28,303 bases of DNA from a virus, in IMG/VR virus record IMGVR_UViG_3300027797_000103, positions 1 through 28,303 of that record; one strand, given 5' to 3'. This document shows positions 1 through 13,835 of the stretch, in pieces. How positions within the stretch are numbered: position 1 is the first letter of the stretch; each line of letters begins with the position of its first letter. A program made the translations under genes and the position numbers. The notes under the pieces are model-generated. The model did not search any database and was not told the origin of the DNA. It saw only the letters and a list, made by a program, of their open reading frames with translations.

Positions 1-189
1 TTTATTTTACAACACTTTACTATAAAATTTATGTTTACTAAATTAGTAGCAATTCTTTTAATTTTTATTGAGCTTGTAAGCATTAAAGAAAATATAGAAT
101 CAGCTTTAAAAGTTGATATTTGGAAAATGTTAAAGAATTTATTAAACCGAGCAAAAGAAGTAAAAGCAGATATAAACGAAATTAATTAA
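1..189 (+). CDS. Phage holin, C-terminal part (5' end outside window)
   Basis: The frame is open from base 1 and ends in TAA at 187-189, so the start lies upstream. The visible 62 residues hold a hydrophobic segment (KLVAILLIFIELVSIKEN, about residues 14-31) followed by a charged, amphipathic C-terminal tail rich in K and E. A hydrophobic run ending in IEL.SI.EN is characteristic of the toxin-secretion/phage-lysis holin family (phage_holin_4 type), which forms membrane lesions that release or activate the endolysin. The stop is one base before the amidase start, the classic holin-endolysin order, which supports the call. The N-terminal membrane helices cannot be seen. Confidence 0.72.
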   Translation, partial: FILQHFTIKFMFTKLVAILLIFIELVSIKENIESALKVDIWKMLKNLLNRAKEVKADINEIN

Positions 190-190
190 A

Positions 191-601
191 ATGCGTAATA
201 TCAAATATATTGTAATTCATTGCACAGCTACACAACCAAACACAAAAAAAGAAGCTATTTTAAGTTATTGGAAAAATACTTTAAAATGGAAAACAGTAGG
301 CTACCATAGATTGATTGATGCAAATGGAGTTATAAACGAACTTGCAAAATACGAACAAATTACAAACGGAGTTAAGGGTTACAATTCAGAATCTATACAC
401 TTCAGTTATATTGGTGGAATTGATGAATCAGGCAGACCAAAAGATACAAGAACTTTAAAACAAAAAGAAAGTTTATTATATTTAATTAAACAAGCTAAAA
501 AACAATTTCCTAACGCTATTGTTCAAGGTCATAAAGATTTCAAAGGAGTTGCAAAGGCTTGTCCAAGTTTTGAAGCTAAAAACGAATATAAAGTGATTTA
601 A
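191..601 (+). CDS. N-acetylmuramoyl-L-alanine amidase (endolysin, T7 lysozyme type)
   Basis: This is a 136-residue Amidase_2 domain protein with no extra cell-wall-binding domain, close to the size of T7 lysozyme. It should cleave the bond between N-acetylmuramic acid and L-alanine in peptidoglycan. Visible motifs are YIVIHCTAT (6-14) with zinc ligand H10, GYHRLI (37-42) with Y38 matching the catalytic Tyr of T7 lysozyme, SYIGGID (72-78), GHKDF (113-117) with zinc ligand H114, and KACPSFE (122-128), where K122 and C124 match the catalytic Lys and zinc Cys of T7 (K-x-C). All catalytic residues are present, so it is likely active. There is no signal peptide, so export needs the holin encoded just upstream. 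Confidence 0.93.
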   Translation: MRNIKYIVIHCTATQPNTKKEAILSYWKNTLKWKTVGYHRLIDANGVINELAKYEQITNGVKGYNSESIHFSYIGGIDESGRPKDTRTLKQKESLLYLIKQAKKQFPNAIVQGHKDFKGVAKACPSFEAKNEYKVI

Positions 602-612
602 AGAACTATTTT

Positions 613-1062
613 ATGAAATATATATATTTACTTACTTTTATCATTTTAGCGTCTTGTGGCTCACGCAAGGTAGCTATAAATAAACAAGAGAAAGAAGTTG
701 AAACTAAAATTGTAGAAAACAAAGTTACAATAGATAGTTCAAACGTAGAAGTTAAATTTAATTACGAATTGGATATTTTTACAGTAGAAGCTAAAGACAA
801 TTTAAAGCCTTTTACATATAATAACAAAACGTATTTTAACGTCGTTTTAAGACACGAAAATAAAAAAGATAATACTTTATATAAAAAAGATATTAGAGTT
901 GTTAAAAACGAAGCTAAAGTATCAAATATTAAATCTAAAGAAGTAATTAAACAAAAGAATACTGAAAAAGATAATTATAATGTAAAATATTATATATTAT
1001 TTTTAATTATTATTTTATTAATTATATATTATATTCTTAAAAGATATTTAAGAGTTATATAA
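613..1062 (+). CDS. Lipoprotein with C-terminal membrane helix; candidate unimolecular spanin
   Basis: The 149-residue product has a lipoprotein signal with lipobox LASC at residues 12-15 (C15 would be lipidated). A charged middle of about 105 residues follows (VKFNYELDIFTVEAK and a K/E-rich stretch), then a very hydrophobic C-terminal helix (about 126-142) and a basic end, KRYLRVI. A lipid anchor at one end and an inner-membrane helix at the other is the architecture of u-spanins such as T1 gp11, which link and fuse the inner and outer membranes in the last step of lysis. Its place directly after holin and amidase, with no separate Rz/Rz1-like pair visible, supports this role. The spanin call is inferred from topology and position, not from homology. 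Confidence 0.7.
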   Translation: MKYIYLLTFIILASCGSRKVAINKQEKEVETKIVENKVTIDSSNVEVKFNYELDIFTVEAKDNLKPFTYNNKTYFNVVLRHENKKDNTLYKKDIRVVKNEAKVSNIKSKEVIKQKNTEKDNYNVKYYILFLIIILLIIYYILKRYLRVI

Positions 1063-1148
1063 ATATTATATATATATTATTATTATATATTATTATATTA
1101 AAATAAGCGTGTACGCACGAGGATTAAAAACTTCACTTATTAATCATT

Positions 1149-1174
1149 TTGTTAATAACTATTATTTACATTTG
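1149..1174 (+). promoter_or_regulatory. Bacteroidota-type promoter upstream of the NinG gene
   Basis: TTTG at 1148-1151 and TACATTTG at 1167-1174 (consensus TAnnTTTG) are separated by 15 bases, somewhat shorter than usual. The -33 element is fused to a palindrome, GTTAATAAC (1151-1159). The same arrangement, TTGTTAATAAC then 7 bases then TAnATTTG, occurs at 5021-5046. The start codon of the next gene is only 5 bases downstream of the -7 box, so the transcript would be leaderless or nearly so if initiation is at the usual distance. Confidence 0.5.
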
Positions 1175-1179
1175 TATTA

Positions 1180-1554
1180 ATGAAAATCAAACGCTCCACA
1201 ATAGTAAAGAATTTAGATACTGTATTTAGTCAATACATACGCAGAAAAGATGCTATTGATGAAATTGCTATTTGTGTAACCTGCGGTAAAAAAGACCACG
1301 TTAAGAAAATGCAGTGCGGTCACTTTCAATCCCGTAGGCATTACTCAACACGTTGGGACGAAAACAACGTAGGAGTTCAATGTTACGGATGCAATATTAC
1401 AAATCAAGGACAGCAGTTTTTATTTGCTAAATATTTAGGATTAGATAAAGCTGAAGAAATGGTTTTAAAATCAAAGCAAATTGTTAAGTTTTCAGACGCA
1501 GATTTGCAAGATATGATACAATACTACAAAGATAAGTTAAAAGAATTTTCTTGA
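1180..1554 (+). CDS. ninG: NinG/Rap-like recombination endonuclease
   Basis: The 124-residue protein matches the lambda NinG (Rap) family signature: CVTCG with a CxxC pair (C32, C35), CGHFQSRRHYSTRWDENNV (46-64), and QCYGCN (67-72) with the second CxxC pair (C68, C71). This is a zinc-stabilised HNH-like fold. Lambda Rap cuts branched DNA intermediates during phage recombination. The protein is shorter than lambda NinG (about 200 residues) and lacks most of its N-terminal extension, as is common in Bacteroidota phages. It is the first gene after the AT-rich gap behind the lysis genes and has its own promoter and a terminator just downstream, so it is probably a separate unit. Confidence 0.85.
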   Translation: MKIKRSTIVKNLDTVFSQYIRRKDAIDEIAICVTCGKKDHVKKMQCGHFQSRRHYSTRWDENNVGVQCYGCNITNQGQQFLFAKYLGLDKAEEMVLKSKQIVKFSDADLQDMIQYYKDKLKEFS

Positions 1555-1584
1555 TATTTCTAATTGTTTCTAATTGTTTGAATT

Positions 1585-1611
1585 GGGTAGTTTAACGGCT
1601 ACCCTTTTTTT
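1585..1611 (+). terminator. Intrinsic terminator after the NinG gene
   Basis: The stem GGGTAG (1585-1590) pairs with CTACCC (1599-1604) around an 8-base loop and is followed by seven T. The same stem is reused at 3036-3061 and, in shortened or altered form, at 8191-8217 and 25183-25210. Confidence 0.85.
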
Positions 1612-1619
1612 GGCTAAAA

Positions 1620-1680
1620 GTTAAAGTTTTGTTAAAAAATAAAAATACACTTGCTAATTAAAAAATTCACTATATATTTG
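1620..1680 (+). promoter_or_regulatory. Promoter with upstream GTTAA box (copy 1)
   Basis: TTG (1651-1653), a 19-base spacer and TATATTTG (1673-1680) form a good TTG-N19-TAnnTTTG promoter 26 bases before the ATG at 1706. Fifteen bases upstream of the TTG lies the box GTTAAAGTTTTGTTAA (1620-1635). It belongs to a 20-base exact repeat, AAAAGTTAAAGTTTTGTTAA, found at 1616-1635 and 13082-13101. The box holds two GTTAA half-sites 11 bases apart, so it may bind a regulator on one DNA face. A variant is at 8218-8233. Confidence 0.7.
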
Positions 1681-1705
1681 CTACATAATTAAAAACAAAA
1701 ACATT

Positions 1706-1921
1706 ATGAAAACAGCAATGCAAGAATTATTTAGTCAGTTAGAAATTGACCATCCGTATTTATTTAATAAAAATACTTTAACAGGTAGACAATTTATAAA
1801 CGATTATTATAAATTTTTTGAATTAGAAAAGCAACAGATAATTAATGCTTGGGAATTAGAAGGTGATGAATATGTTAGAAATGGAAAAGATTATTATAAA
1901 GTAACATTTAAAAACAATTAA
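1706..1921 (+). CDS. Small protein of unknown function, first gene of the early operon
   Basis: The 71-residue product is not assigned to a family. It is soluble, with a helical N-terminal half and an aromatic, acidic C-terminal part (NAWELEGDEYVRNGKDYYKVTF) that looks like a small beta-hairpin. It is the first gene behind a strong TAnnTTTG promoter and has an A-rich leader (AAAAACATTATG). Similar small proteins with an ELEKQQI..A segment are frequent in Flavobacteriia phages, which I recall only as a general pattern. It is transcribed with the ERF annealing gene. Confidence 0.7.
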   Translation: MKTAMQELFSQLEIDHPYLFNKNTLTGRQFINDYYKFFELEKQQIINAWELEGDEYVRNGKDYYKVTFKNN

Positions 1922-1924
1922 ACT

Positions 1925-2095
1925 ATGAAAGATTTAATCGACTATCAAAGATTCCAAGTTGAAGCATTACAAAAAAAGATTTGCGAACTTGAAACAAAAT
2001 TAAACGAGGTTAAAACACACATATTTGAGTTATGTGATGAGGAATGCCCAAACGAGTACAAAACAATTATTAAACAAAAAACTTACGAATTATGA
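1925..2095 (+). CDS. Small coiled-coil protein of unknown function
   Basis: The 56-residue frame runs from ATG 1925 to TGA 2093-2095. Its TGA overlaps the ATG of the ERF gene (ATGA), typical of translational coupling. Residues 8-33 (heptad-like, LQKKICELETKLNEVKTHI) form a probable coiled coil. A Cys pair follows (ELCDEECP). Spacing to the gene before is only three bases. Function unknown; the operon context suggests a recombination accessory protein. Confidence 0.65.
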   Translation: MKDLIDYQRFQVEALQKKICELETKLNEVKTHIFELCDEECPNEYKTIIKQKTYEL

Positions 2096-2673
2096 AAGAA
2101 TTAACATTACACGAAAAATTGAGCAAAATTCAAGTAGAATTTAAAGCTAACAAATCAAAGTTTAACTCTTTTGGAAAATATAACTTCCGTTCTGCAGAAG
2201 ATATATTAGAAGCGTTAAAACCTTATAACGAAAAATATGGTGTATCTTTTGCAATTAACGAATCAATAGTTGAAAATTACGATAGTAGTTTACCTCCAAT
2301 GTTAAAATCAACTGCAACTATTTATGATAATAATGGTTTAAACGAAATAAGTGCTACTGCAATAGTAGGAGTTGACTTACAACAAAAAGGTATGCAAGTT
2401 CCTCAACAATTTGGGTCAGCATCTTCTTATGGTAAAAAATACGCATTAGGAAATTTACTATTAATTGATGACACACAAGACCCTGATGCAACTAATACTC
2501 ACGGTAAACCTGTTGCGACTACAACTGAAGTTGAGCAAAAGTGGTTAAACATAGGTCAGCCTGAATTTACAAAAGCTATTGAGTATTTAAAAGGCGGTGG
2601 AAGTATTGATGTTATAGAAAAAAAGTATAAATTAGCCAAAAAGGTAAAAGATGAACTTTTAAAAGTTAAGTAA
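2092..2673 (+). CDS. erf: ERF-family single-strand annealing protein
   Basis: The 193-residue protein carries the ERF superfamily signatures: YNFRSAEDI (30-38) near the N-terminus and QFGSASSYGKKYALGNL (106-122) followed by LLIDD. ERF proteins such as P22 Erf bind single-stranded DNA, anneal complementary strands and circularise or recombine phage genomes. The C-terminal region after about residue 140 (EVEQKWLNIGQPEFTKA...) is variable in the family and may contact other proteins. An SSB-like gene follows at once and an exonuclease VIII-like gene sits at 8696, which together make a complete annealing-recombination set. Confidence 0.92.
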   Translation: MKELTLHEKLSKIQVEFKANKSKFNSFGKYNFRSAEDILEALKPYNEKYGVSFAINESIVENYDSSLPPMLKSTATIYDNNGLNEISATAIVGVDLQQKGMQVPQQFGSASSYGKKYALGNLLLIDDTQDPDATNTHGKPVATTTEVEQKWLNIGQPEFTKAIEYLKGGGSIDVIEKKYKLAKKVKDELLKVK

Positions 2674-2730
2674 TAAAAACTGAATAGCCGACAACAGTAA
2701 AAAAAGGTAGGCAAAGTAAAATTAAATATT

Positions 2731-3027
2731 ATGAGTGCAATTATCAATTTAAGTATTAGAGTTGACAAACTACCAAAAGAAAAGTTTGTAATGGGTAAAG
2801 ACGGAGCAGTTTATTATAACTGTACTTTAAACATTAACGATGATGCTAACCAATGGGGTCAAAATGTATCTTTAACAGATTCACAAACAAAAGAAGAACG
2901 TGAAGCTAAAAAGTCTAAAAACTATTTAGGAAACGGAAACGTTGTTTGGACTGATGGAAACATTAAAGCAGTTAAAAAAGAGGGACAAACTCAACAAGCT
3001 GCTTTGGTAGATGATTTAGGATTTTAG
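2731..3027 (+). CDS. Probable single-stranded DNA-binding protein
   Basis: The 98-residue protein has a beta-rich body (INLSIRVDKL, AVYYNCTLNIND, QNVSLTDSQTKEER, NGNVVWTDG) that fits a small OB-fold. It ends in the acidic, aromatic-tipped tail DDLGF (94-98), similar to the DDIPF tip with which bacterial SSB proteins recruit partners. Similar short proteins with QTKEERxAK and YLGNGxVVWTDG segments are common next to recombination genes in Bacteroidota phages. The call rests on the tail, the fold guess and the position behind ERF; direct SSB sequence similarity is weak. A terminator follows immediately. Confidence 0.62.
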   Translation: MSAIINLSIRVDKLPKEKFVMGKDGAVYYNCTLNINDDANQWGQNVSLTDSQTKEEREAKKSKNYLGNGNVVWTDGNIKAVKKEGQTQQAALVDDLGF

Positions 3028-3035
3028 TATTAATT

Positions 3036-3061
3036 GGGTAGTGTAAAAGCTACCCTTTTTT
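3036..3061 (+). terminator. Intrinsic terminator after the SSB-like gene
   Basis: GGGTAG (3036-3041) pairs with CTACCC (3050-3055), loop of 8 bases, then six T. The next gene starts only 14 bases later and has no recognisable promoter in that gap, so some read-through or a promoter inside the SSB gene is needed. Confidence 0.83.
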
Positions 3062-3074
3062 AAAACAAACAATT

Positions 3075-3893
3075 ATGGAAATAAATAAAATTTATTGCGA
3101 AAGCAATTTAGATACAATGGCAAAAATGCCTGACAATTTTGTAGATTTAACAGTTACATCACCACCTTACGATAATTTAAGAACTTATAAAAATGACATT
3201 GATAAATTTTGGGGTGAACAAGTTTGGAAACCTATTATAAAAGAATTATATAGAATAACAAAAAAAGGTGGCGTTGTTGTATGGGTTGTTAATGATGCTA
3301 CAATTAATGGAAGCGAATCCGGTACAAGTTTTAAACAAGCATTATATGCTATTGAATGCGGTTTTAATTTGCACGATACAATGATTTATGAAAGAGTAAG
3401 CCCTTTTCCTCAAGATAACAGATATCATCCAAGTTTTGAATATATGTTTATTTGGTCTAAAGATAAACCAAATACTTTTAATAGAATAATGGAAAAAAGA
3501 AATAGTAAAAAAGGTGGAAATACATTTAGACAAAAAGATGGTACATTAGCAAAACCTGATGAAAAAGCAAAAGAAAGACTAAACAACGCAAATAAACAAG
3601 AAGATACTTCAAGAAAAAACATATGGAGATATAATGTTGGAGGTGGCAGTACAAAAGATGAAATAGCTTTTGGACATCCTGCCACATTTCCCGAGTTATT
3701 AGCAGCTGAACATATATACTCTTGGAGTAATGAAGGAGATTTGGTTTATGACCCTTTTATGGGTAGTGGAACAACTATAAAAATGGCACATATTTATAAA
3801 AGAAATTGGATTGGAAGTGAAATATCACAAGAATATGTAGATTTAGCTAACAAAAGATTGAAACCATATTTAGACCAACAAACATTATTTTAA
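3075..3893 (+). CDS. Beta-class DNA methyltransferase (TSPPY type; N4-cytosine or N6-adenine)
   Basis: The 272-residue enzyme should transfer a methyl group from S-adenosylmethionine to an exocyclic amine of DNA. The catalytic motif TSPPY (28-32) is near the N-terminus and the SAM-binding motif DPFMGSGTT (226-234) is near the C-terminus, the beta-class order. TSPPY is most typical of N4-cytosine enzymes but also occurs in N6-adenine ones. The C-terminal block NWIGSEISQEYVDLANKRL is the usual motif X-like end. The lysine-rich region around 140-185 is probably the target recognition part. All motifs are intact. A restriction-nuclease candidate lies 2.7 kb downstream at 6552. Confidence 0.92.
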   Translation: MEINKIYCESNLDTMAKMPDNFVDLTVTSPPYDNLRTYKNDIDKFWGEQVWKPIIKELYRITKKGGVVVWVVNDATINGSESGTSFKQALYAIECGFNLHDTMIYERVSPFPQDNRYHPSFEYMFIWSKDKPNTFNRIMEKRNSKKGGNTFRQKDGTLAKPDEKAKERLNNANKQEDTSRKNIWRYNVGGGSTKDEIAFGHPATFPELLAAEHIYSWSNEGDLVYDPFMGSGTTIKMAHIYKRNWIGSEISQEYVDLANKRLKPYLDQQTLF

Positions 3894-4145
3894 ATGGAAC
3901 GTAAAGAAATATTTTATTGTAACTTAACTTTACAAAATGGTAAAGATATTTTATGTTTAAAAAATGTTGTTTATAAATATACAGATGGATATTTTAAAAA
4001 TAAAAGATTAGGTGTATCAGAACCTTTAAAAGTTTTAAAAGTTGATGTTATTCATAGTTTAGGTTTTGAAAATAAAACAAATGAATATTTAGAATTTAAA
4101 AAATCAAATGAAAAAAGAAATAACATAACCGGTGCATATGAATAA
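3894..4145 (+). CDS. Small protein of unknown function
   Basis: The 83-residue product begins directly after the methyltransferase stop, with no gap, so it is translated from the same message. It looks like a compact beta-strand protein (FYCNLTLQNGKDILCLKNVVYKY) with a basic, disordered C-terminus. I do not recognise it. The coupling to the methyltransferase is suggestive, but no functional link can be shown from sequence. Confidence 0.65.
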   Translation: MERKEIFYCNLTLQNGKDILCLKNVVYKYTDGYFKNKRLGVSEPLKVLKVDVIHSLGFENKTNEYLEFKKSNEKRNNITGAYE

Positions 4146-4155
4146 TTTAATTTAA

Positions 4156-4163
4156 TACATTTG
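4156..4163 (+). promoter_or_regulatory. -7 promoter box TACATTTG upstream of the ATPase gene
   Basis: An exact TAnnTTTG element lies 12 bases before ATG 4176. No clear TTTG -33 element is found at the expected distance, so activity may need an activator. Because the TTG at 4161-4163 is part of this box, it is not a plausible start codon for the ATPase. Confidence 0.45.
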
Positions 4164-4175
4164 CAAAAAACAATT

Positions 4176-5027
4176 ATGACAGAACAAGAAACAATAAACA
4201 GAATGTTAATGGAAGTTCTTGAAGAAGATTGCTACATTAACCCTGAACAAGAAATAGAATATCCAATACCTGCTTTGTCTTTTGGTGAAAAAGAATACGA
4301 AACAAAAGATGGTTATAAAACATATCCAATTCCTATTGGTACTTATGGTAACTTTAGTTTTATTCAAGCACCTCCTAAATCAAAAAAAACGTTCTTTATA
4401 TCGCTTTTAAGCGCAGTTTATATGAAAAACGAGTTACAGGGCTTTGGCGGTAAATTAAGAGGTAACAGACAAGATAAACACGTTATACATTTTGACACCG
4501 AGCAAGGAAATTTTCACGCTTCAATGGTTTTTAAAAGACCATTACAAATGACAGGTTTAAAAGATGATAAATACCATACTTACGCATTGCGGCAATTAGG
4601 TTTTAAAGAAAGGGTTTCTTTTATTGAATACATACTTTATGATAAATTAGAGGGCAAAGATATTGGATTAGTTATAATTGATGGGATTGCAGATTTATGT
4701 TCCGATGTAAATAGCATAGAACAGGCTTCAGAAGTTGCTCAACATTTAATGCGTTGGTCAAAAGAATTAAATTGTCATATTGTAACAGTTATCCACTCAA
4801 ATTTTGGAACTGATAAACCAACAGGGCATTTAGGTTCGTTTTTAGAAAAAAAAGCAGAAACACAAATCCAATTAGAACTAAACACAGTAAATAAAGAGCT
4901 TGTTAAAGTAAGTTGCAAAAGAAGTAGAAACGCAAGTTTTGAAGATTTTAATTTTAAAGTAAACAATTTTGGATTACCACAAGTTGAAGGTGATTTATAT
5001 GATATACTAAAAAATGTTAATTGTTAA
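4176..5027 (+). CDS. RecA/RepA-fold ATPase, probable replication or recombination helicase
   Basis: I use ATG 4176 (283 residues) rather than the in-frame TTG at 4161, which lies inside a promoter box; the leader AAAACAATTATG recurs before other genes. The protein belongs to the RecA-like P-loop ATPases related to plasmid RepA and DnaB-type helicases. Walker A is degenerate, APPKSKKT (65-72), lacking the usual glycines. HFDTEQG (105-111) is the typical strand after the P-loop, LVIIDG (165-170) is Walker B, and VIHSNFG...GHLGS (205-221) is the sensor and DNA-contact region. It sits among replication and recombination genes, and no other replicative helicase is seen in the window. Confidence 0.8.
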   Translation: MTEQETINRMLMEVLEEDCYINPEQEIEYPIPALSFGEKEYETKDGYKTYPIPIGTYGNFSFIQAPPKSKKTFFISLLSAVYMKNELQGFGGKLRGNRQDKHVIHFDTEQGNFHASMVFKRPLQMTGLKDDKYHTYALRQLGFKERVSFIEYILYDKLEGKDIGLVIIDGIADLCSDVNSIEQASEVAQHLMRWSKELNCHIVTVIHSNFGTDKPTGHLGSFLEKKAETQIQLELNTVNKELVKVSCKRSRNASFEDFNFKVNNFGLPQVEGDLYDILKNVNC

Positions 5028-5046
5028 TAACTTATTAATAAATTTG
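5021..5046 (+). promoter_or_regulatory. Promoter upstream of 5051, same design as the NinG promoter
   Basis: TTGTTAATAAC (5021-5031), 7 bases, then TAAATTTG (5039-5046). The arrangement and the 15-base spacer equal those at 1149-1174, and here too the ATG follows the -7 box by 4 bases, implying a leaderless or very short-leader transcript. It overlaps the end of the ATPase gene. Confidence 0.5.
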
Positions 5047-5050
5047 AACT

Positions 5051-5347
5051 ATGGAAAATTTAACTATTAAAAATCATTTACAAGCGTTACAAGTTTCAAC
5101 TGCAAGAATGTTAGTTTACAATTCTGATAACCCTGAATTATTAGCTTACTTTAAAGACGTTACTTTTAAGCTACAAATGATTGAAAAATTATTAGAAGTT
5201 GATTCGGTTTTAGATTGGCAAAGTATAGAACAAGCATATAAAGAAATTTTAAAACAAGATTCAGAACTTACAGACGTAGAAATAAAAATTAGTATAAAAC
5301 CTGCAATAGAACAAAAGGTAGCTAAAATAACAGCAAAACTTTATTAA
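5051..5347 (+). CDS. Helical protein of unknown function
   Basis: The 98-residue product is predicted mostly helical (LQALQVSTARMLVY, LLAYFKDVTFKLQMIEKLLEV) with a lysine-rich C-terminal strand region. No catalytic motif is visible and I do not recognise the family. It is the first gene of a short run that includes a small membrane protein and the sigma-like factor. Confidence 0.65.
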   Translation: MENLTIKNHLQALQVSTARMLVYNSDNPELLAYFKDVTFKLQMIEKLLEVDSVLDWQSIEQAYKEILKQDSELTDVEIKISIKPAIEQKVAKITAKLY

Positions 5348-5349
5348 TT

Positions 5350-5553
5350 ATGATTATATATATTTTATTATTTTTATTATCTATTCTTTTAATTTGGGCA
5401 CACCAAACAGGCAAAGATATACAGATAGCATCTATTCAGGGTTTTATGTTAGGAGTTCTTTACGATTGTGATGTACAAGAAGAAGAAAAATACTATACTA
5501 TTCAGGTTTTGATTGGTGTATTAGCAATAAACATTTTATGGGAAACGAACTAA
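5350..5553 (+). CDS. Small two-helix membrane protein
   Basis: The 67-residue product has a strongly hydrophobic N-terminus (residues 1-16, IIYILLFLLSILLIW) and a second hydrophobic stretch at about 50-64 (VLIGVLAINILW), with an acidic loop containing EEEK between them. It overlaps the sigma-like gene by 16 bases. Function unknown; small inner-membrane proteins in early operons often act in host takeover or superinfection exclusion, but nothing here shows that. Confidence 0.62.
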   Translation: MIIYILLFLLSILLIWAHQTGKDIQIASIQGFMLGVLYDCDVQEEEKYYTIQVLIGVLAINILWETN

Positions 5554-6059
5554 TATTAGAAAGAGTTGCAAAGTACCACAAAGATTGGGTAGAACTTGCT
5601 TCGGTATTTGACAAAGATTGGGCTGAAGATATTGTTCAAGAAATGTACCTTTTGCTGCATAAGTATAAAGTATCAGAACAGCAAATGTTTACCAATGGCA
5701 AAATTAATCGTGGTTATGTGTTTATAATAATTAGAAACATACACTTTCAACTTCATAATATTAGAAAACGTATTGACAAATGTGAACTTAATGATGAAAT
5801 TTACAACTTAATTGATGACTATTCAGAAGATAAAGAAAACGAATGGAACGATTTTAGGCTAAAAGCAGAACAAGAGGTTAACAGTTGGGAATGGTACGAC
5901 AAAAAGCTATTTACTTTATATAGGGATAATAAAACCTCAATAAGAAAATTAGCAAAAGAAACGGGAATAAGTTTTGTTTCTATATTCCACACGTTAAAAG
6001 CTAATAAGCAAAAGCTAAAAAGATTACTTCAAGAAGATTACGATAACTTAAAACTTTAA
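5538..6059 (+). CDS. Sigma-70-like RNA polymerase sigma factor (divergent)
   Basis: The 173-residue protein has a region-2-like segment (WAEDIVQEMYLLLHKY, 28-43; GYVFIIIRNIHFQLHN, 59-74, then basic IRKR) and a C-terminal helix-turn-helix (SIRKLAKETGISFVSIFHTL, 134-153) like region 4. The order and spacing match small ECF-like sigma factors, and AEDIVQE is the most typical region 2 signature. A phage-encoded sigma factor would direct host RNA polymerase to phage promoters, probably those of the structural genes. The start overlaps the end of the membrane protein gene. It could instead be a sigma-like terminase small subunit or another HTH protein; region 2 similarity favours sigma. Confidence 0.7.
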   Translation: MGNELILERVAKYHKDWVELASVFDKDWAEDIVQEMYLLLHKYKVSEQQMFTNGKINRGYVFIIIRNIHFQLHNIRKRIDKCELNDEIYNLIDDYSEDKENEWNDFRLKAEQEVNSWEWYDKKLFTLYRDNKTSIRKLAKETGISFVSIFHTLKANKQKLKRLLQEDYDNLKL

Positions 6060-6063
6060 AAAA

Positions 6064-6435
6064 ATGGGAAGACCAAAAAAATCAAAAGGACTTGGCGACA
6101 CAGTTGAAAAAATAACTAAAGCCACAGGGATTAAAAAAGTAGTTGATGCAATATCAGAAGCCACAGGAATTGATTGTGGTTGCGGTGAACGTAAAGACTT
6201 ACTTAATAAAATGTTTCCTTACAAGCAAACAGAATGTTTGAACGATGTAGATAACGAGTGGTTAACTAATTTTTTCTCAACTACTAATAATCAGTTAACA
6301 CCAAAGCAGCAAAACAGAATTACTGAAATTTATAAGAATGTATTTAATGAAAACATACAGCCTTCAAATTGTGGTTCTTGTTGGAGAGATAAAATAAACG
6401 AACTTAAACAAGTTTATGACACTCAAAGAGCATAA
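6064..6435 (+). CDS. Cysteine-containing protein of unknown function
   Basis: The 123-residue product starts with a basic patch (GRPKKSK) and holds two similar stretches, TKATGIKKVVDAI (18-30) and SEATGIDCGCGE (31-42). Four cysteines in two pairs (C38/C40 and C103/C106, the latter in NCGSCW) could bind a metal. A CGCGERK..LN segment recurs in Bacteroidota phage proteins of unknown function. The context (sigma factor before, nuclease after) suggests an early regulatory or host-takeover protein. Confidence 0.7.
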   Translation: MGRPKKSKGLGDTVEKITKATGIKKVVDAISEATGIDCGCGERKDLLNKMFPYKQTECLNDVDNEWLTNFFSTTNNQLTPKQQNRITEIYKNVFNENIQPSNCGSCWRDKINELKQVYDTQRA

Positions 6436-6580
6436 GTTTGTTGAAGACGTTAGGCTTTTATTTGAGAAACACAAAATAGAATATTTAAAAGTAACCACAG
6501 TAAAAACTGTTCTTGATAATAAAATTAACGGATACCACATACATTTTAAAAATGAAAGTAAACAACCAAAACAGGTTTGA
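6416..6580 (+). CDS. Small protein of unknown function, overlapping both neighbours
   Basis: The 54-residue frame runs from ATG 6416 to TGA 6578-6580. It overlaps the previous gene by 20 bases and the next one by 29, which is unusual but fits the packing of this operon. The product is charged, with a helix (EHKFVEDVRLLFEKHKIEYLK) then beta-strand-like segments. It fills what would otherwise be a gap of about 115 bases, and its codon use (AAA, TTA, GAA) is like that of the neighbours. Confidence 0.55.
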   Translation: MTLKEHKFVEDVRLLFEKHKIEYLKVTTVKTVLDNKINGYHIHFKNESKQPKQV

Positions 6581-7211
6581 AGTATCGTTTGATAAAACAA
6601 AGTTCAGTTTATTAAACAAAGACAAAAAGATTGCTTGGTTATTTAGAAGTTCAGAAGTTGGAAAGTGTGCTAAAATATTCGATGACTACTATAACTCAAC
6701 TGAAACTTTAACACCAAAAGATTGGTTCTTGTTTTATAAGTCAGTAATGGGTGTTGATATACTAAAAGAAGTTTCCAATAAGATTATGGAGATAACTAAA
6801 TTAGATGAAGATACCTGTTTTGAATATACAAAGTTCAGAGTTCTTGGTCAAACTTGGAATGGTATGTTAAACGAAATAGATTTAATTAACGAACTTAAAC
6901 AAGAATTTCCAAACATTGAATTTAGAAAGGCAAATTATAATTTAGATGAAAACTATTTTACTGATTGGGAAGCATACAGTTACGGAAAGTTATTTTTAGG
7001 TTTACAAATTAAACCAATAACGTATCAGTATATGAATACACCATATCAGAATCAAGCTAAATTAAACCACGAACTGCAAAGGCAAAAGTACAAAGATGAG
7101 TTTAAAGTTCCGCATTTTTTAATATATTACGAGAACAATAAACTACAAGACAAACAAAAAGTAATAGACAGAATAAATACATTATTAATAAACTTAATAG
7201 AAGTAAGATGA
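6552..7211 (+). CDS. MjaI-family-like restriction endonuclease (candidate)
   Basis: ATG 6552 is preferred to the in-frame TTG at 6513. The 219-residue protein has a probable PD-(D/E)xK nuclease core: E108 in GMLNEIDLINEL (104-115), an acidic segment ending in FTDWEAY (136-142), then QIKPITYQ (152-159), where Q-x-K follows the acidic strand. The final strands (VPHFLIYYENN) end the fold. The WNGMLNEIDLI, QIKP.TY and IYYE blocks resemble the MjaI family of type II enzymes; MjaI cuts CTAG, and its partner methylase is of the TSPPY type. A methyltransferase of that type is encoded at 3075. Family assignment is from memory of motifs. Another PD-(D/E)xK nuclease is the main alternative. Confidence 0.55.
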   Translation: MKVNNQNRFEVSFDKTKFSLLNKDKKIAWLFRSSEVGKCAKIFDDYYNSTETLTPKDWFLFYKSVMGVDILKEVSNKIMEITKLDEDTCFEYTKFRVLGQTWNGMLNEIDLINELKQEFPNIEFRKANYNLDENYFTDWEAYSYGKLFLGLQIKPITYQYMNTPYQNQAKLNHELQRQKYKDEFKVPHFLIYYENNKLQDKQKVIDRINTLLINLIEVR

Positions 7212-7558
7212 GTGCAATACAATTAGAATATTTAAAACAAGTTATCCTTTCGCAACTGTTATTGGAATGTAACGAGAATTTACGCTTTACAGTACAATAC
7301 AAGCAACAAATTAAGAATAGGGTAAACTTACTTAACAAAGATTTAGAAAGCGTCGTACATAAAGAATATACGAGTGTATATAAAACCGACCCTGAAATGA
7401 CTACAAACATTTTAAGCAAAATTGAAAGTTTAGTTACTAAATTAACAACCTCAACACTTGATGAGTTAATTATGATTGATGCAGTTATTGAAAAATACAA
7501 CGAGAATAAAGAATGGTTTAAAGAATATGCAGAAACAGAATTTTTAAAAATAGATTAA
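7208..7558 (+). CDS. Helical protein of unknown function
   Basis: The 116-residue product overlaps the nuclease stop by 4 bases (ATGA) and should be translationally coupled to it. It is predicted all-helical with amphipathic stretches and an acidic C-terminus (WFKEYAETEFLKID). I do not recognise the family. Its tight coupling to the nuclease gene makes it worth testing as a partner or inhibitor of that enzyme, but this is only inference. Confidence 0.65.
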   Translation: MSAIQLEYLKQVILSQLLLECNENLRFTVQYKQQIKNRVNLLNKDLESVVHKEYTSVYKTDPEMTTNILSKIESLVTKLTTSTLDELIMIDAVIEKYNENKEWFKEYAETEFLKID

Positions 7559-7559
7559 T

Positions 7560-7784
7560 ATGGCAACACCAATGCACTACATTACAGAATCAAAGATTGA
7601 TGTAATAGACTTTTGTAAAATGTACGATATGAATTTTAATCGTGGAAATATAGTTAAATATTTAGCAAGAGCAGGTAAAAAAGATAACGAACTTGATGAC
7701 TTGCGTAAAGCCTTAAATTATTTACTTCGTGAAATAGAACACCACGAAAAACTTCAGGAAGAATGGATAGAGAACAACAAATAG
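7560..7784 (+). CDS. DUF3310 protein (T7 gp1.7-like nucleotide kinase family)
   Basis: The 74-residue protein matches the short DUF3310 signature: HYITESKIDVIDFCKMYDM (6-24), then NRGNIVKYLARAGKK (27-41) and DDLRKALNYLLREI (45-58). DUF3310 proteins are widespread in phages; the T7 member gp1.7 is a nucleotide kinase acting on dGMP and dTMP. This copy is little more than the core domain. It likely acts on nucleotide pools during phage replication, but activity of such short members is unproven. Confidence 0.83.
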   Translation: MATPMHYITESKIDVIDFCKMYDMNFNRGNIVKYLARAGKKDNELDDLRKALNYLLREIEHHEKLQEEWIENNK

Positions 7785-7990
7785 TAAGTAGGCTTACAAA
7801 TTTAACTAAAAATATAAATAATATAAATGGTTATGATATACATTTGTCAAGCGATTTGTTTTATCAATATTTATTAGATGTTTTTAATGTAAAAGAATTT
7901 CAAGAAAATGTAAGGTTTGATGGAATTAAAATTGTTTTAGATAATAATTTAAAAGAAAATAGTATTCAAATATTTATAAATAATGAATAA
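7763..7990 (+). CDS. Small protein of unknown function
   Basis: The 75-residue frame overlaps the DUF3310 gene by 22 bases and the next gene by 8. The product alternates a polar helix (QQIVSRLTNLTKNINNI) with beta-strand-like segments (FDGIKIVLDNN, SIQIFINNE). No motif recognised. The overlap pattern and codon use fit a real gene. Confidence 0.6.
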   Translation: MDREQQIVSRLTNLTKNINNINGYDIHLSSDLFYQYLLDVFNVKEFQENVRFDGIKIVLDNNLKENSIQIFINNE

Positions 7991-8195
7991 AAACGCAAAG
8001 ATAGAAGTAACAAGTTTTGAGCACTATATTATAGAAATAGAAGGTGTGAAACATATAAGGTATGTTATGAAGTCTATTGTAGATGGCGAAGATGTTCAAT
8101 GTAATTTACAAGAAGTTTACAAAGGCTACCCAATAACAAAGGAGGGTTTTCTTGAAAGGGCAAGGGAAGGAATGATAAGACAAAGATACAGGTAG
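7983..8195 (+). CDS. Small protein of unknown function whose stop codon lies in the terminator stem
   Basis: The 70-residue product is a charged alpha/beta protein (FEHYIIEIEGVKHIRYVMKSIVDG) with a basic C-terminus (REGMIRQRYR). The TAG stop (8193-8195) is part of the GGTAG arm of the terminator at 8191-8217, so ribosomes finishing this gene would cover the hairpin. I do not recognise its family. Confidence 0.65.
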   Translation: MNKNAKIEVTSFEHYIIEIEGVKHIRYVMKSIVDGEDVQCNLQEVYKGYPITKEGFLERAREGMIRQRYR

Positions 8196-8217
8196 TTTAA
8201 CAGCTACCTTTTTTTTT
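8191..8217 (+). terminator. Intrinsic terminator overlapping a stop codon
   Basis: GGTAG (8191-8195) pairs with CTACC (8204-8208), loop TTTAACAG, followed by nine T. The loop is nearly that of the terminator at 1585 (TTTAACGG), so these are copies of one cassette. The 5' arm contains the TAG stop of the preceding gene. Confidence 0.82.
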
Positions 8218-8267
8218 GTTAAATTTTTGTTAAAATGTTAATAAGTAAAAAATATTTATTATATTTG
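8218..8267 (+). promoter_or_regulatory. Promoter with upstream GTTAA box (copy 2)
   Basis: The box GTTAAATTTTTGTTAA (8218-8233) is followed by the -7 element TATATTTG (8260-8267), 29 bases before ATG 8297. Box-to-box distance is 42, compared with 53 in the other two copies, a difference of 11 bases, about one DNA turn. The -33 region (ATGTTAATAA) matches TTTG poorly. The leader contains ATCAAACAAT (8272-8281), also found in the leader at 13151-13160. Confidence 0.6.
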
Positions 8268-8296
8268 CTGTATCAAACAATTAAAACAAAACAATT

Positions 8297-8488
8297 ATGA
8301 GAACATTTAAGTACAGACAAGAAGAAGTAGAAGTTGAATACAATACTTATGACGATGGTGATAAAGAATATCATCCTGAAATTATTATTGAAGCAGTTTA
8401 TTTTAACGGAGTAAATATACTTCCTATAATGAGCCAAGCTGATGAGATAGAATTAAAAGAAGAAATGACCGATAAACTATTTGCATAA
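8297..8488 (+). CDS. Small acidic protein of unknown function
   Basis: The 63-residue product is beta-rich (FKYRQEEVEVEYNTYDDGD, EIIIEAVYFNGVNIL) and acidic, with a C-terminal helix. It is the first gene behind the 8218-8267 promoter and overlaps the next gene by one base (TAATG). Function unknown; the acidic character would fit a DNA mimic, but there is no specific evidence. Confidence 0.68.
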   Translation: MRTFKYRQEEVEVEYNTYDDGDKEYHPEIIIEAVYFNGVNILPIMSQADEIELKEEMTDKLFA

Positions 8489-8694
8489 TGAAAACAGAAA
8501 TCATAAACGAGTTAGACAACCTTATTCAATTAAGCAAAGATTTAGACAACGCTTATATGAAAAACAAATTACGTGACATTAAAAAGCTACTGCTAAAAGA
8601 ATGGAACGAATCAGATTTATATTACGAACAAATCAGAGAAGTATTAAGAGAAGAAGAAACATTTAACAATTTAAACGCAATAAAAATAAGATAA
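8488..8694 (+). CDS. Small helical protein of unknown function
   Basis: The 68-residue product is helical and highly charged throughout (IINELDNLIQLSKDLDNAY, IKKLLLKEWNESDLYYEQIREVL). It begins on the last base of the preceding stop codon. No motif is recognised. It lies directly before the exonuclease gene. Confidence 0.63.
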   Translation: MKTEIINELDNLIQLSKDLDNAYMKNKLRDIKKLLLKEWNESDLYYEQIREVLREEETFNNLNAIKIR

Positions 8695-8695
8695 T

Positions 8696-9460
8696 ATGAT
8701 AACAACATTTGATAACAAACAATGGACTAAAGAAGAAATACTTTATCTTATGCTTGACGATAGTTTTTACTATGGCTATTTAGGGCAAAACGCTTTAAGT
8801 AGTTCAACTATTAAAACATTAGTAAACTCACCAAAGACTTACTACTTTACAACTAAATACGGAAGTGGTGAAACTCAAGCCTTGCGTGATGGTAAACTAT
8901 TTCATACAATGATATTAGAACCCGAGAAATTAGATGATATTATATTTGTAGATGCAGCTACAAAAGCATCAAAAGAATATAAGTTAGCAAAAGAAACAGG
9001 CAAAGAAGTTTACACTAAAAATGAAAAGAAAGCTGCAGAACGTTTATGCGATGCATTATTAAGAAACGAAGCAGTAAAAGAATACTTAACAAAAGCAGAA
9101 TACGAAGTACCACAAATAGCAATGATTGATGGAATACCTATAAGAGCAAAAGCAGATATAATAAAAGGCAATACTATTATAGATTTAAAAACCACAACAG
9201 GTATAAAAGACTTTAGATATTCAGCAGACAAATATTCATACGATTTACAAGCGTGGTTGTATCGTGAAATGTTTGGAGTAGATAACTTTATATTTATAGC
9301 TATTGACAAAGGTAGTTTAGATATTGCTATCTTTGAATGTAGTGATGAGTTTTACGAGAAAGGGAAACAAAAGTTTGAGCAAGGTGTAAGCAACTATAAA
9401 TACTTTTTTCAAACAGAAGGAGTAGACCTTGACCAATACGTATTAAGAGGAGTATTATAA
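8696..9460 (+). CDS. Exonuclease VIII-like PD-(D/E)xK nuclease
   Basis: The 254-residue protein is of the RecE/exonuclease VIII C-terminal type (DUF3799-like). Visible core residues are GKLFHTMILEPE (66-77, H70), E137 in EYEVPQ, IRAKADII (149-156, D154), IIDLKTT (161-167, D163 and K165) and YDLQAWLY (182-189, Q185), the full set expected for the nuclease. It should resect double-stranded DNA ends in the 5'-3' direction and so supply single strands to the ERF protein. ALSSSTIKTLVNSPKTYYF (33-51) is the usual N-terminal helix. No sign of truncation. Confidence 0.9.
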   Translation: MITTFDNKQWTKEEILYLMLDDSFYYGYLGQNALSSSTIKTLVNSPKTYYFTTKYGSGETQALRDGKLFHTMILEPEKLDDIIFVDAATKASKEYKLAKETGKEVYTKNEKKAAERLCDALLRNEAVKEYLTKAEYEVPQIAMIDGIPIRAKADIIKGNTIIDLKTTTGIKDFRYSADKYSYDLQAWLYREMFGVDNFIFIAIDKGSLDIAIFECSDEFYEKGKQKFEQGVSNYKYFFQTEGVDLDQYVLRGVL

Positions 9461-9726
9461 TGAAAGCAAGAACACCATACCAATTCGCAAAAGAATTAAT
9501 AGACAAGTTTTTACCATACGTTAATTGGAATGACTTGCAAGAAGATTGTGCAAATAAACAATGCGCAATAAGAAACGCAAAACAATGTGCTTTAATTAAC
9601 CTTGATTATATGGAATCAATTATGCTTACTATTTGGGAAGCAGCAGGTATAAACGAAAGTTGCAGAAGTACATATTTATTATCAGTAAGAGAAGAAATAG
9701 AAAAATATAATGGAAATAGTAACTAA
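9460..9726 (+). CDS. Small cysteine-containing protein, paralogue of 10039-10224
   Basis: The 88-residue product starts on the last base of the exonuclease stop (TAATG). It shares with the 61-residue protein at 10039-10224 the pattern A[KR]EL..K near the N-terminus, AK[QE]CALI in the middle, and V[RK][EQ]EIEK at the end. It has five cysteines, three in DCANKQCAIRNAKQC. This is a frequent small family in Bacteroidota phages with no known function to me. The longer copy has an insert between the first and second blocks. Confidence 0.68.
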   Translation: MKARTPYQFAKELIDKFLPYVNWNDLQEDCANKQCAIRNAKQCALINLDYMESIMLTIWEAAGINESCRSTYLLSVREEIEKYNGNSN

Positions 9727-9940
9727 AGACGAAGCGTTTGCTATGACACTTTACGATATTGCACAAGGTGAATCGTTAGAAGGTATGCGACTTATTTTAA
9801 AAGACTATGAAGAACGTGAGCAGTTTGAAATTTGTGCAGGAATACATTTAGCAATAGAGGTATCATACTTTTTAACACTTACCGCAGTTATAGATAAATT
9901 TAACCCAAAAGAATTAGAATTAACATTTGATGAATTATGA
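9710..9940 (+). CDS. Small acidic protein of unknown function
   Basis: The 76-residue product overlaps its predecessor by 17 bases and its successor by 4. It is acidic and mainly helical (EAFAMTLYDIAQGESLEGMRLILKDYEE) with a hydrophobic middle (IHLAIEVSYFLTLTAVI) that is probably a buried helix. Function not recognised. Confidence 0.62.
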   Translation: MEIVTKDEAFAMTLYDIAQGESLEGMRLILKDYEEREQFEICAGIHLAIEVSYFLTLTAVIDKFNPKELELTFDEL

Positions 9941-10035
9941 CCGTATCAGAAATAGTAATAAGCCTTTTTGTTATATTTATTATACCAATAATTATTGTTT
10001 TATTAGAAGTTTTTAGTAATTATAAAAATAAATAA
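9937..10035 (+). CDS. Very small single-helix membrane protein
   Basis: The 32-residue frame from ATG 9937 to TAA 10033-10035 is almost entirely one hydrophobic helix (VISLFVIFIIPIIIVLL, residues 7-23) with a basic C-terminal end (NYKNK), consistent with an inner-membrane protein. It overlaps the previous gene by ATGA and is 3 bases before the next, so it occupies the only gap in the run. Function unknown. Confidence 0.6.
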   Translation: MTVSEIVISLFVIFIIPIIIVLLEVFSNYKNK

Positions 10036-10038
10036 ACT

Positions 10039-10224
10039 ATGAGTAGTCCAAAAGAAGAAGCGAGAGAGTTAGTTTATAAATATATGAATTCTAATAATAT
10101 GATTTTTTTAATTGAAGGAGCTAAAGAATGTGCATTAATAGCAGTTGAAATGGTTATTTTAAATTGCTATGAAGAAGAGGAGTACTATTGGCAAGAAGTT
10201 AAACAAGAAATAGAAAAATTATGA
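10039..10224 (+). CDS. Small protein, paralogue of 9460-9726
   Basis: The 61-residue product has the blocks PKEEARELVYKYM (4-16), AKECALIAVEMV (28-39) and YYWQEVKQEIEKL (49-61). These line up with the 88-residue protein at 9460, so the two appear to be an internal duplication with divergence. It overlaps the DnaA-like gene by 4 bases (ATGA). Confidence 0.68.
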   Translation: MSSPKEEARELVYKYMNSNNMIFLIEGAKECALIAVEMVILNCYEEEEYYWQEVKQEIEKL

Positions 10225-10685
10225 TAATAGAAAAAATAAAACAAGAAACAGGAATTGATGTAACCTTAAAAAGTAGGAAGCGTGAACAAGTAGAAATGAA
10301 AACATTAGCGTCATTTTTATTTAGACAAAAAGGATATTCTTTAACACAAATAGGAAAAGAGTTAAACTTAAACCACGCAACTATAATACACCACTTAAAA
10401 ATATATGAAACTGTTAAACACTATAACCCAAAGATACAAGAATTAGAAAATACTATAATAGGAAACAAACCTGATTTAGTAGTTGAATCATTACAGCTTA
10501 CAAATAAATTAAAAGATATTGAAATATCAGAACTTAAAAAACAAATAGAACAATTAAAAAAACAGCATACTAATAAAACTATAAACAGATTAATACCTTT
10601 ATTAGAACACGAAGATATAAAAGAAAAATTTGAAGCATTTTTAAACATTAACGAAAAAGCAAAATACTATAAGAAATATGAGTAA
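10221..10685 (+). CDS. DnaA domain IV-like DNA-binding protein with coiled coil
   Basis: The 154-residue protein has an N-terminal segment like the DNA-binding domain IV of DnaA: RKREQVEMKTLASFLFRQKG (19-38), YSLTQIGKELNLNHATIIHH (39-58), where NHATIIHH corresponds to the DHSTVIHA signature helix that reads the DnaA box. It lacks the AAA+ ATPase domain. Residues about 90-125 form a probable coiled coil (ISELKKQIEQLKKQ), suggesting dimerisation. It may bind the phage origin or compete with host DnaA; a transcriptional role is equally possible. Confidence 0.78.
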   Translation: MIIEKIKQETGIDVTLKSRKREQVEMKTLASFLFRQKGYSLTQIGKELNLNHATIIHHLKIYETVKHYNPKIQELENTIIGNKPDLVVESLQLTNKLKDIEISELKKQIEQLKKQHTNKTINRLIPLLEHEDIKEKFEAFLNINEKAKYYKKYE

Positions 10686-10860
10686 CTTACAAACAGCAAA
10701 AGAAAGAGCAGAAAACTATATGAAGCTAAAAGCAGGATATAAACAAACACCCTTACAAAGAATACAAAGAGTAATGAACTTCTATTATAAAAGAGGTTGC
10801 AATAAAGAATCAGTGAACACAATTTATAAAAAAATACTAAAAGATAAATTTAAGATATGA
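10678..10860 (+). CDS. Small basic protein of unknown function
   Basis: The 60-residue product is very basic and helical (TAKERAENYMKLKAGYKQTPLQRIQRVMNFYYKRG). It overlaps the DnaA-like gene by 8 bases and the next by 4. The charge suggests nucleic-acid contact, but no motif is recognisable. Confidence 0.62.
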   Translation: MSNLQTAKERAENYMKLKAGYKQTPLQRIQRVMNFYYKRGCNKESVNTIYKKILKDKFKI

Positions 10861-11108
10861 GCACAACATTTGGAATATTAACAGAACAAATAGACCATAA
10901 TAAATTAGTTGATGAAGATGGAGACTTACATTTTTATATATCAAAGACTATATTTGAACCAATATTTTTTAGAGGTAATTCTTCAAGATGGTTGGTTTCT
11001 TATGGAGAACAATTTAAAGATGATACAATAGTTTATGCTTTAGATAATACTCAACAAGGAATACACACAATAAAAGACATTAAACAATTTTTAAAAAATA
11101 AGATATGA
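10857..11108 (+). CDS. Small protein of unknown function
   Basis: The 83-residue product is a mixed alpha/beta protein (DLHFYISKTIFEPIFFRG, SRWLVSYGEQFKDDTIVYALDN) ending in a short helix with lysines. Overlaps by ATGA on both sides show it is part of the operon. Function not recognised. Confidence 0.64.
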   Translation: MSTTFGILTEQIDHNKLVDEDGDLHFYISKTIFEPIFFRGNSSRWLVSYGEQFKDDTIVYALDNTQQGIHTIKDIKQFLKNKI

Positions 11109-11290
11109 AACTACAATTAACAGCATACAAAAAAACATACACTATTGAAACTGAAAATGATGATTTATATATTAAGGAATACTTTGATATAATCATTGGC
11201 TTACTTATACAAGCAGGTTTCCATAAAGAAACAATAGATAGAACAATAATAGAATTATCTGACGAATTAAAAGAAGAACAAGATGCCTGA
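11105..11290 (+). CDS. Small acidic protein of unknown function
   Basis: The 61-residue product begins with two beta strands (MKLQLTAYKKTYTIETEND) and continues as an amphipathic helix (IKEYFDIIIGLLIQAGFHKETIDRTIIELS) with an acidic end. It resembles small unassigned phage proteins lying before terminase genes in Bacteroidota phages. It overlaps the next gene by 8 bases. Confidence 0.63.
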   Translation: MKLQLTAYKKTYTIETENDDLYIKEYFDIIIGLLIQAGFHKETIDRTIIELSDELKEEQDA

Positions 11291-11435
11291 TATAACAATG
11301 TGTAACGGAAAGAATTGTGATTTAGCTTCAACCTGTTATAGATACAAAGCTGAACCAAGTAGATACGGACAAACCTATTTTACTGAAGCACCTATTGAAG
11401 ATGAACAATGTGATTATTATTGGGAAGTAGTTTAA
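11283..11435 (+). CDS. Small cysteine-rich protein, possible zinc knuckle
   Basis: The 50-residue frame runs from ATG 11283 to TAA 11433-11435. Cysteines C7, C12, C18 and C43, in the pattern CNGKNCDLASTC then QCDYYW, could bind a metal. YRY.AEPS.YGQTYF between them is a recurrent pattern in small Bacteroidota phage proteins. Its end overlaps a degraded terminator cassette. Function unknown. Confidence 0.65.
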   Translation: MPDITMCNGKNCDLASTCYRYKAEPSRYGQTYFTEAPIEDEQCDYYWEVV

Positions 11436-11448
11436 CAATAACCTTTTT
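11427..11448 (+). terminator. Degraded copy of the reused terminator
   Basis: GTAGTTTAACA-ATA-ACC-TTTTT aligns with the intact copy at 8191 (GGTAGTTTAACA-GCT-ACC-TTTTT), but the GCT triplet of the 3' arm has become ATA, which breaks the stem. It probably no longer stops transcription, so the early operon could read into the terminase genes. Confidence 0.35.
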
Positions 11449-11450
11449 AG

Positions 11451-11463
11451 TTTATTTTTAAAT
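11451..11463 (+). repeat. TTTATTTTTAAAT motif before the terminase small-subunit gene
   Basis: This 13-base sequence recurs exactly at 25233-25245, and its core TTWATTTTTAAA also occurs at 13817-13828 and 21179-21190, each just before a structural-module gene. It is a candidate late-promoter or leader element; the AT-rich background makes the call weak. Confidence 0.35.
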
Positions 11464-11484
11464 TGATAATAAAGTTTTTCAATT

Positions 11485-11745
11485 ATGGAAGATAAAAGAA
11501 AATTAAACGGAGGGCATCCAAATAGCGGTCGCAAATCTAAAGCTGAAGAAGTTGCTTTAATAGAGAAGTTAACTCCATTAGAGCCTTTGGCTTTTGCTGC
11601 ATTAGAGAAAGGATTAGAGCGCGGTGATTTTAAATTCACTCAACTGTTCTACAATTACTATGCAGGTAAACCACGTGAAACAAAAGACGTTACTTTAATT
11701 AGTGAACAGCCTATATTTGATATAAGCGATTTAGAAGACATTTAA
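11485..11745 (+). CDS. Probable terminase small subunit
   Basis: The 86-residue protein lies 9 bases before the large terminase. It starts with a basic, glycine-rich segment (KRKLNGGHPNSGRKSKAEE) typical of small DNA-packaging proteins, followed by a helical region (EKLTPLEPLAFAALEKGLERG, FKFTQLFYNYYAGKPRETK). Small subunits recognise phage DNA for packaging. It is shorter than most TerS proteins (usually 120-200 residues) and has no clear helix-turn-helix, so the call relies on position and the N-terminal segment. Confidence 0.62.
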   Translation: MEDKRKLNGGHPNSGRKSKAEEVALIEKLTPLEPLAFAALEKGLERGDFKFTQLFYNYYAGKPRETKDVTLISEQPIFDISDLEDI

Positions 11746-11754
11746 GCAACGATA

Positions 11755-12921: not shown

Positions 12922-13082
12922 TGACATACGCTGAAATAATTGCTACAATAGAATGTTATATCTATTTAACAACAAATCAAAATGTATTAATAGCTATGCC
13001 GAGAAACGTAGGCGAAATAAAGAAAATGAAAGCTATGTATGAGGTTGCTAAATTAAACGTAGCTTATATGTATCAGATTTAA
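12921..13082 (+). CDS. Small protein of unknown function after the terminase
   Basis: The 53-residue frame begins at ATG 12921 (TAATG overlap with terL) and ends at TAA 13080-13082. The product is helical, with a central MPRNVGEIKKMKAMYEVAKLNVAYM segment. It looks like a small soluble protein and is unassigned. Overlap with terL and matching codon use support it as real. Confidence 0.58.
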   Translation: MTYAEIIATIECYIYLTTNQNVLIAMPRNVGEIKKMKAMYEVAKLNVAYMYQI

Positions 13083-13085
13083 AAA

Positions 13086-13146: not shown

Positions 13147-13174
13147 CACCATCAAACAATAACAAATAGAAATT

Positions 13175-13366: not shown

Positions 13367-13368
13367 TT

Positions 13369-13759: not shown

Positions 13760-13766
13760 AATTAAG

Positions 13767-13793: not shown

Positions 13794-13813
13794 GTTTTAT
13801 ACAATTCTTAAGT

Positions 13814-13834: not shown

Positions 13835-13835
13835 T

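Follow-up and report, generated by a model that had tools for sequence, protein, structure and literature searches.

Genes and Features of the Locus

Two genes of the window, i.e., the whole 28,303-nucleotide stretch of viral DNA analyzed here, are central to this study: a solo endonuclease gene of the RE_MjaI family, predicted to be specific for CTAG, and the gene of a beta-class amino-methyltransferase (Table 1). They are 2658 bp apart, in agreement with the 2.7 kb given by the first-pass annotation. The endonuclease gene lies between two conserved neighbors, within a region of recombination genes (ERF, exonuclease and NinG), of which the exonuclease could degrade the ends left by the nuclease.

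Table 1. Coordinates of the features of the window discussed in the text.
Feature	Position	Strand	Evidence or remark
Genome-wide absence of CTAG	1..28303	.	Read as part of self-tolerance; 0 vs. 63.7 and 0 vs. 40.7 (synonymous)
ERF-type single-strand annealing protein	2092..2673	+	PF04404 (4.5e-30); same early recombination region
Beta-class amino-methyltransferase, accessory, phrog_67 type	3075..3893	+	PF01555 (E = 1.9e-42); best seen as not the partner of the nuclease
Left neighbor of the slot, conserved	6064..6435	+	Kept by nearly all relatives, irrespective of the slot tenant
RE_MjaI-family endonuclease, solo, predicted CTAG-specific	6552..7211	+	219 aa; PF09568, PADLOC, AF2, CTAG = 0 in solo carriers
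Exchangeable slot	6572..7189	+	Stretch swapped for an unrelated nuclease-like gene in the near-identical relative L144
Putative catalytic residues of the nuclease	6873..7013	+	E108 (6873-6875), D138 (6963-6965), Q152-x-K154 (7005-7013)
Right neighbor of the slot, conserved	7208..7558	+	First bases shared with the 3' end of the nuclease gene
PD-(D/E)XK / exonuclease VIII-type recombination exonuclease	8696..9460	+	phrog_412 (4.7e-38); PDDEXK_1 (1.9e-8)

The product of the ORF at 6552-7211, which contains the motif LQIKPITY, had been described as MjaI-like, and the Pfam profile search agrees: it matches RE_MjaI (PF09568) with E = 3.6e-7 and 30.6 bits, above the gathering cut-off of 22.7, as do its relatives in L026, L202, L277 and L287, and it is recognized by PADLOC as REase_II (1.7e-9). 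Structure prediction with AF2 yielded a confident model (mean pLDDT of 90), for which the fold match in the PDB is weak (best nuclease: Hjc, prob 0.95, E 0.18), and a PDB sequence search returned no relatives. E108, D138 and the QxK motif are invariant in an alignment of 15 sequences, chromosomal relatives included; these putative catalytic residues would correspond to a D...(Q)xK variant of PD-(D/E)XK.

CTAG in Nuclease Carriers and Their Relatives

Counting confirmed the initial impression that CTAG is missing from this DNA: the window has no site at all, vs. about 64 expected (63.7 ± 6.8 in dinucleotide shuffles), and synonymous-codon shuffles of the ORFs still give 40.7 ± 5.2 sites, with a minimum of 28. 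CTAG is not the sole missing motif, the window being also poor in CATG (0), CCAG/CTGG (0), GATC (1) and CTNAG (1), so that linking CTAG to the nuclease required a comparison across phages. To this end, IMG/VR was scanned with the nuclease (44 loci, later extended), while nuclease-negative relatives were collected through their terminase and an AAA protein.

CTAG is absent from 61/61 nuclease-positive loci, sampled partly by the very genes tested, and many nuclease-negative relatives carry it. It is also lacking in 10 more distant solo loci, and among solo loci this holds for nucleases with as little as about 43% identity, also where a distant locus retains CATG, CCAG, CTNAG or GATC. Altogether, 47 deduplicated solo-nuclease contigs (516 kb) contain none of the 1116 CTAG sites expected, with 74/985 for CATG and 99/860 for GATC, and nine whole or near-whole solo genomes (three with terminal repeats) contain 0/599. 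Among the nuclease-negative relatives, CTAG is often present, sometimes near the expected number, and those that also lack it are mostly short contigs or possible recent losers of the gene. The first-pass annotation had tied CTAG to the nuclease, and the strict absence of the motif from every solo carrier makes it the probable target of the protein.

The other depleted motifs are less easily assigned. CCAG is at zero in 9/9 whole solo-MjaI genomes; a nuclease gene behind CCAG/CTGG avoidance was sought, and the best candidates are leaky, with 13/851 and 15/862 sites left in their carriers. Some relatives (L106-L112, L117 and L113) have 0 to 2 CTNAG sites and a normal number of CTAG sites. The host of this phage group may be Flavobacteriia-like, judging from a terminase similarity of 56%.

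RE_MjaI genes without an adjacent methyltransferase also occur on two large plasmids, pSC2 (Paenibacillus polymyxa) and CP139434 (Brevibacillus), where none of the stretches read (about 172 kb) contains CTAG, and CATG and GATC are near normal. The loci L197-L201, on the very large plasmids CP139434 and NC_014628, show this combination of an MjaI-type nuclease, no adjacent methyltransferase and no CTAG. A solo nuclease on a plasmid would need to be silenced or tolerated in its bacterial host, which implies regulation or host protection.

The Methyltransferase and the Restriction-Modification Reading

The methyltransferase (272 aa) has TSPPY and FxGxG motifs, and its match to PF01555 is above the cut-off, so that the original call of a beta-class TSPPY enzyme stands. 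It further matches phrog_67 (1.9e-55), and its best PADLOC model is that of an orphan methyltransferase (oMTase, 3.7e-82). The two genes had been read as a split restriction-modification pair, in which this enzyme would methylate CTAG and thereby shield the phage from the nuclease. At face value, their presence in one genome is compatible with such a pair, all the more as MjaI-type systems include a TSPPY methyltransferase; however, the enzyme of the window is only 23% identical to the methyltransferases found beside MjaI-type nucleases, two of which share 47% identity with each other. Moreover, it is not conserved along with the nuclease across the relatives, and the majority of carriers do without it: PF01555 is matched in 5/19 solo-carrier records (four over the cut-off) and in none of the other 14/19, while a clear MjaI-type methyltransferase was found in none of the 19, which yielded two weak partial matches only. 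Finally, in a genome with zero CTAG sites, a CTAG methylase would have nothing to shield. Type II systems encode a matching cognate methyltransferase along with the nuclease and keep their sites under the protection of methylation, and neither such an enzyme nor any CTAG is found in the window phage. The split-pair claim is thus not supported, its truth being extremely improbable, and the methyltransferase is more readily understood as an accessory gene, which belongs to a subfamily other than that of the MjaI-type partners.

Other methyltransferase families are found in some carriers, i.e., C5 in 4/12 and one Dam-like match below the cut-off, and none of the four families tested was found in G005, a genome with terminal repeats. 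The repertoires of individual carriers (G005, G007, G009, G010, G012, G013, G015 and G016) are very unlike, ranging over none of the four families, C5, PF01555 and Dam-like, and some vary between sister phages.

True nuclease–methyltransferase pairs were observed only in L202, L203 and L287. The first two are chromosomal loci of Saprospirales with an MjaI-type methyltransferase near the nuclease, in which CTAG amounts to 17/63 and 1/77 of expectation; the scan of genome contigs with the nuclease returned two chromosomal relatives only. L287 is the only viral carrier that retains CTAG (16/56 expected over 34 kb), and an MjaI-type TSPPYPMIEMWD methyltransferase lies two genes from its nuclease. 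It is an exception that fits, CTAG being kept where an MjaI-type methyltransferase is nearby.

An Exchangeable Slot with Alternative Tenants

Within this phage group, the nuclease forms a conserved module, located in a slot whose content changes. In L144, the flanks of the slot are 94.5% and 90.9% identical to those of the window, while a gene of another family, ELK, replaces the MjaI gene, the exchange having occurred at the gene borders. Where the nuclease is missing, a different small gene, either ELK or EFES, is usually found between the neighbors at 6064 and 7208, and the slot is empty in some relatives. ELK proteins (about 130 aa, RWDCYSP...RIELKCR, e.g., L050:114-515) have about 565 matches in IMG/VR, no match in Pfam and no relatives in a PDB sequence search; profile comparison of MjaI and ELK alignments revealed no relation between them. 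EFES proteins (about 120-125 aa, EVKRD...GNIAIEFESRGKPSGI, phrog_13596, e.g., L130:4106-4483) come from freshwater and marine phages, and their PDB sequence search gave one chance-level match only.

Each of these families goes along with the loss of its own motif. ELK carriers, which often contain CTAG, have 4/2142 CATG sites across 86 contigs, the four remaining ones all falling within the initial 400 bases of a single contig; EFES carriers have 2/1866 GATC sites in 62 contigs, with GC contents from 25 to 52%, and CTAG and CATG are often near normal. Double carriers of ELK and EFES are devoid of CATG and, save one site in L311, of GATC, and are not lacking in CTAG. Conversely, CATG is present again in 4/5 contigs with an empty slot. 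When 437 gene families were screened blindly against 152 motifs, the same three associations came out on top, MjaI–CTAG (p = 1e-14), ELK–CATG (1e-11) and EFES–GATC (4e-11), p-values that overstate independence, the contigs being fragments of related phages; in an earlier and smaller screen, the top families for CTAG and CATG had also been MjaI and ELK, respectively. Neither ELK nor EFES was found in the window, despite the near-absence of CATG and GATC.

Other phages lack further palindromes. Caudovirales sp. ct2KA10 (L390) has 0/106 CATG, 0/100 GATC and 0/127 AGCT; its ELK relative explains CATG alone, and no EFES match was found in it. Roseobacter phage CRP-804 (L399, positions 5000-30000) has none of the 75 GTAC sites expected, the other tested palindromes being present, which perhaps reflects another nuclease; an HNH gene is located at 12854-13084.

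Cultured Phages and Host Restriction

No relative of the MjaI nuclease was found in the phage record collection, so that the support from cultured phages comes from EFES, of which relatives, 33-50% identical to the query, are found in phages of Pelagibacter, Puniceispirillum and others. GATC is at zero in the 9/9 cultured EFES phages read (22-33 kb each), other palindromes being mostly near expectation, while HTVC010P, which infects the same host HTCC1062 and in which no EFES was found, has 131/139 GATC sites.

These phages bear on the possibility that CTAG is missing solely through restriction by the host, the nuclease gene being coincidental. Site avoidance in response to host restriction-modification is well documented (PMC6286503), and several motifs are avoided by the phage group under study, as such an explanation would have it. 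Yet, phages of HTCC1062 differ in GATC according to their EFES content, which argues against an origin in host restriction, as does the blind screen, where CTAG, CATG and GATC each follow their own slot gene. Sister phages without the nuclease, presumably in similar hosts, also retain CTAG, and the same CTAG pattern recurs on two Bacillota plasmids. Host restriction alone is thus a very improbable explanation.

Probable Function of the Nuclease

The simplest reading, and one that we consider very probable, is that of a solo MjaI-family CTAG nuclease, to which the phage is tolerant through the erasure of its sites and which probably cuts host DNA. The nuclease would recognize CTAG in a phage devoid of the cognate methyltransferase, and would be tolerated through the purging of every CTAG from the phage genome, self and non-self being told apart by the absence of the motif and not by methylation. 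The alternative tenants of the slot would obey the same logic, ELK with CATG and EFES with GATC. Early in infection, a four-base cutter would shred the host chromosome, which is its most probable job, and the neighboring exonucleases would then digest the fragments. The gene context, i.e., the early recombination genes and, in HTVC019P, the position of EFES (12845-13249) between DNA polymerase and exonuclease, with ribonucleotide reductase just beyond, suggests a part in the degradation of host DNA. Membership of the family, the strict loss of the own motif in carriers, its reappearance in non-carriers, the exchange at the slot and the want of a conserved partner methyltransferase are established, while cleavage of DNA, its precise specificity, the host as target and the timing are inferred. 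Depletion of CATG, GATC, CCAG and CTNAG in the same group weighs against this reading, their causes being not all explained by it.

Alternatively, the slot gene might encode a Holliday-junction resolvase or a packaging nuclease with a mild sequence preference, instead of a restriction-type cutter. The AlphaFold model of ELK is indeed closest to archaeal Hjc resolvases (E 1e-3, TM about 0.53-0.57), and the slot belongs to a recombination-gene region, but a resolvase depends on the sites that it prefers, and their purging runs contrary to expectation. Furthermore, MjaI relatives with an adjacent methyltransferase resemble true restriction-modification systems, and pelagiphages have an endonuclease I besides EFES. 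We regard a resolvase or packaging role as most improbable.

That the solo nuclease is aimed mainly at rival phages and not at the host chromosome is unlikely, albeit worth serious consideration. Sister phages have different slot alleles, and the motifs of other alleles are often retained by the carriers of one, so that co-infecting relatives would cut one another, and the partial loss of these motifs would fit past exposure. Nevertheless, the host chromosome would be cut as well, unless protected, and the exonuclease and ribonucleotide reductase genes beside the EFES of HTVC019P suggest nucleotide recycling. With a nuclease directed primarily at host DNA, any co-infecting phage with the motif left in its genome would be cut too, and the exclusion of sister phages would likely follow, either as a by-product or as a second function. 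The first-pass proposal of a use against host DNA or rival phages is thus plausible.

Significance and Comparison with Known Systems

It is fairly likely that phages make general use of restriction without modification, a strategy in which several unrelated small nuclease families, exchanged in dedicated slots or stacked in one genome, each drive the loss of one short motif from the DNA of their phage. If true, the specificity of a phage nuclease would be readable from the motif that its genome lacks, which would offer a computational route from genomes to nuclease specificity; GTAC in CRP-804, AGCT in ct2KA10 and CCAG/CTGG in the window may be further cases. Discrimination of self by motif erasure would differ from textbook restriction, which relies on methylation, and would provide a reason other than host restriction for the palindromes missing in phages. 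Likely functions and four-base specificities could also be proposed for two unannotated phage families, ELK and EFES, which may be a source of small new four-base cutters. No report of the same system was found in the open-access literature.

Phage endonucleases that degrade host DNA include T4 EndoII and T7 endonuclease I, the DNA of T4 itself being spared by base modification. The nucleases described here resemble these enzymes in their probable role in host DNA breakdown, but, unlike in the base modification of T4, the MjaI, ELK and EFES families each track a strictly absent four-base palindrome. Among the closest known systems is the MjaI restriction-modification system (RE_MjaI PF09568 and a TSPPY methyltransferase, acting on CTAG), with the same nuclease family and the same probable target, from which the phage gene differs by the lack of a cognate methyltransferase, by site erasure as the probable means of self-tolerance and by its location in an exchangeable slot. 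In jumbo phages, Mom-type modification is fused to REase-fold nucleases, which have been proposed to attack the DNA of the host or of superinfecting phages while sparing that of the phage (PMC7824862); there, protection comes from base modification, whereas here the sites are simply absent. Finally, phage genomes are depleted of short palindromes in correspondence with the sites of host-encoded enzymes (PMC6286503), whereas in the present case the strict absence of a motif follows a nuclease gene encoded by the phage itself and changes with the allele.
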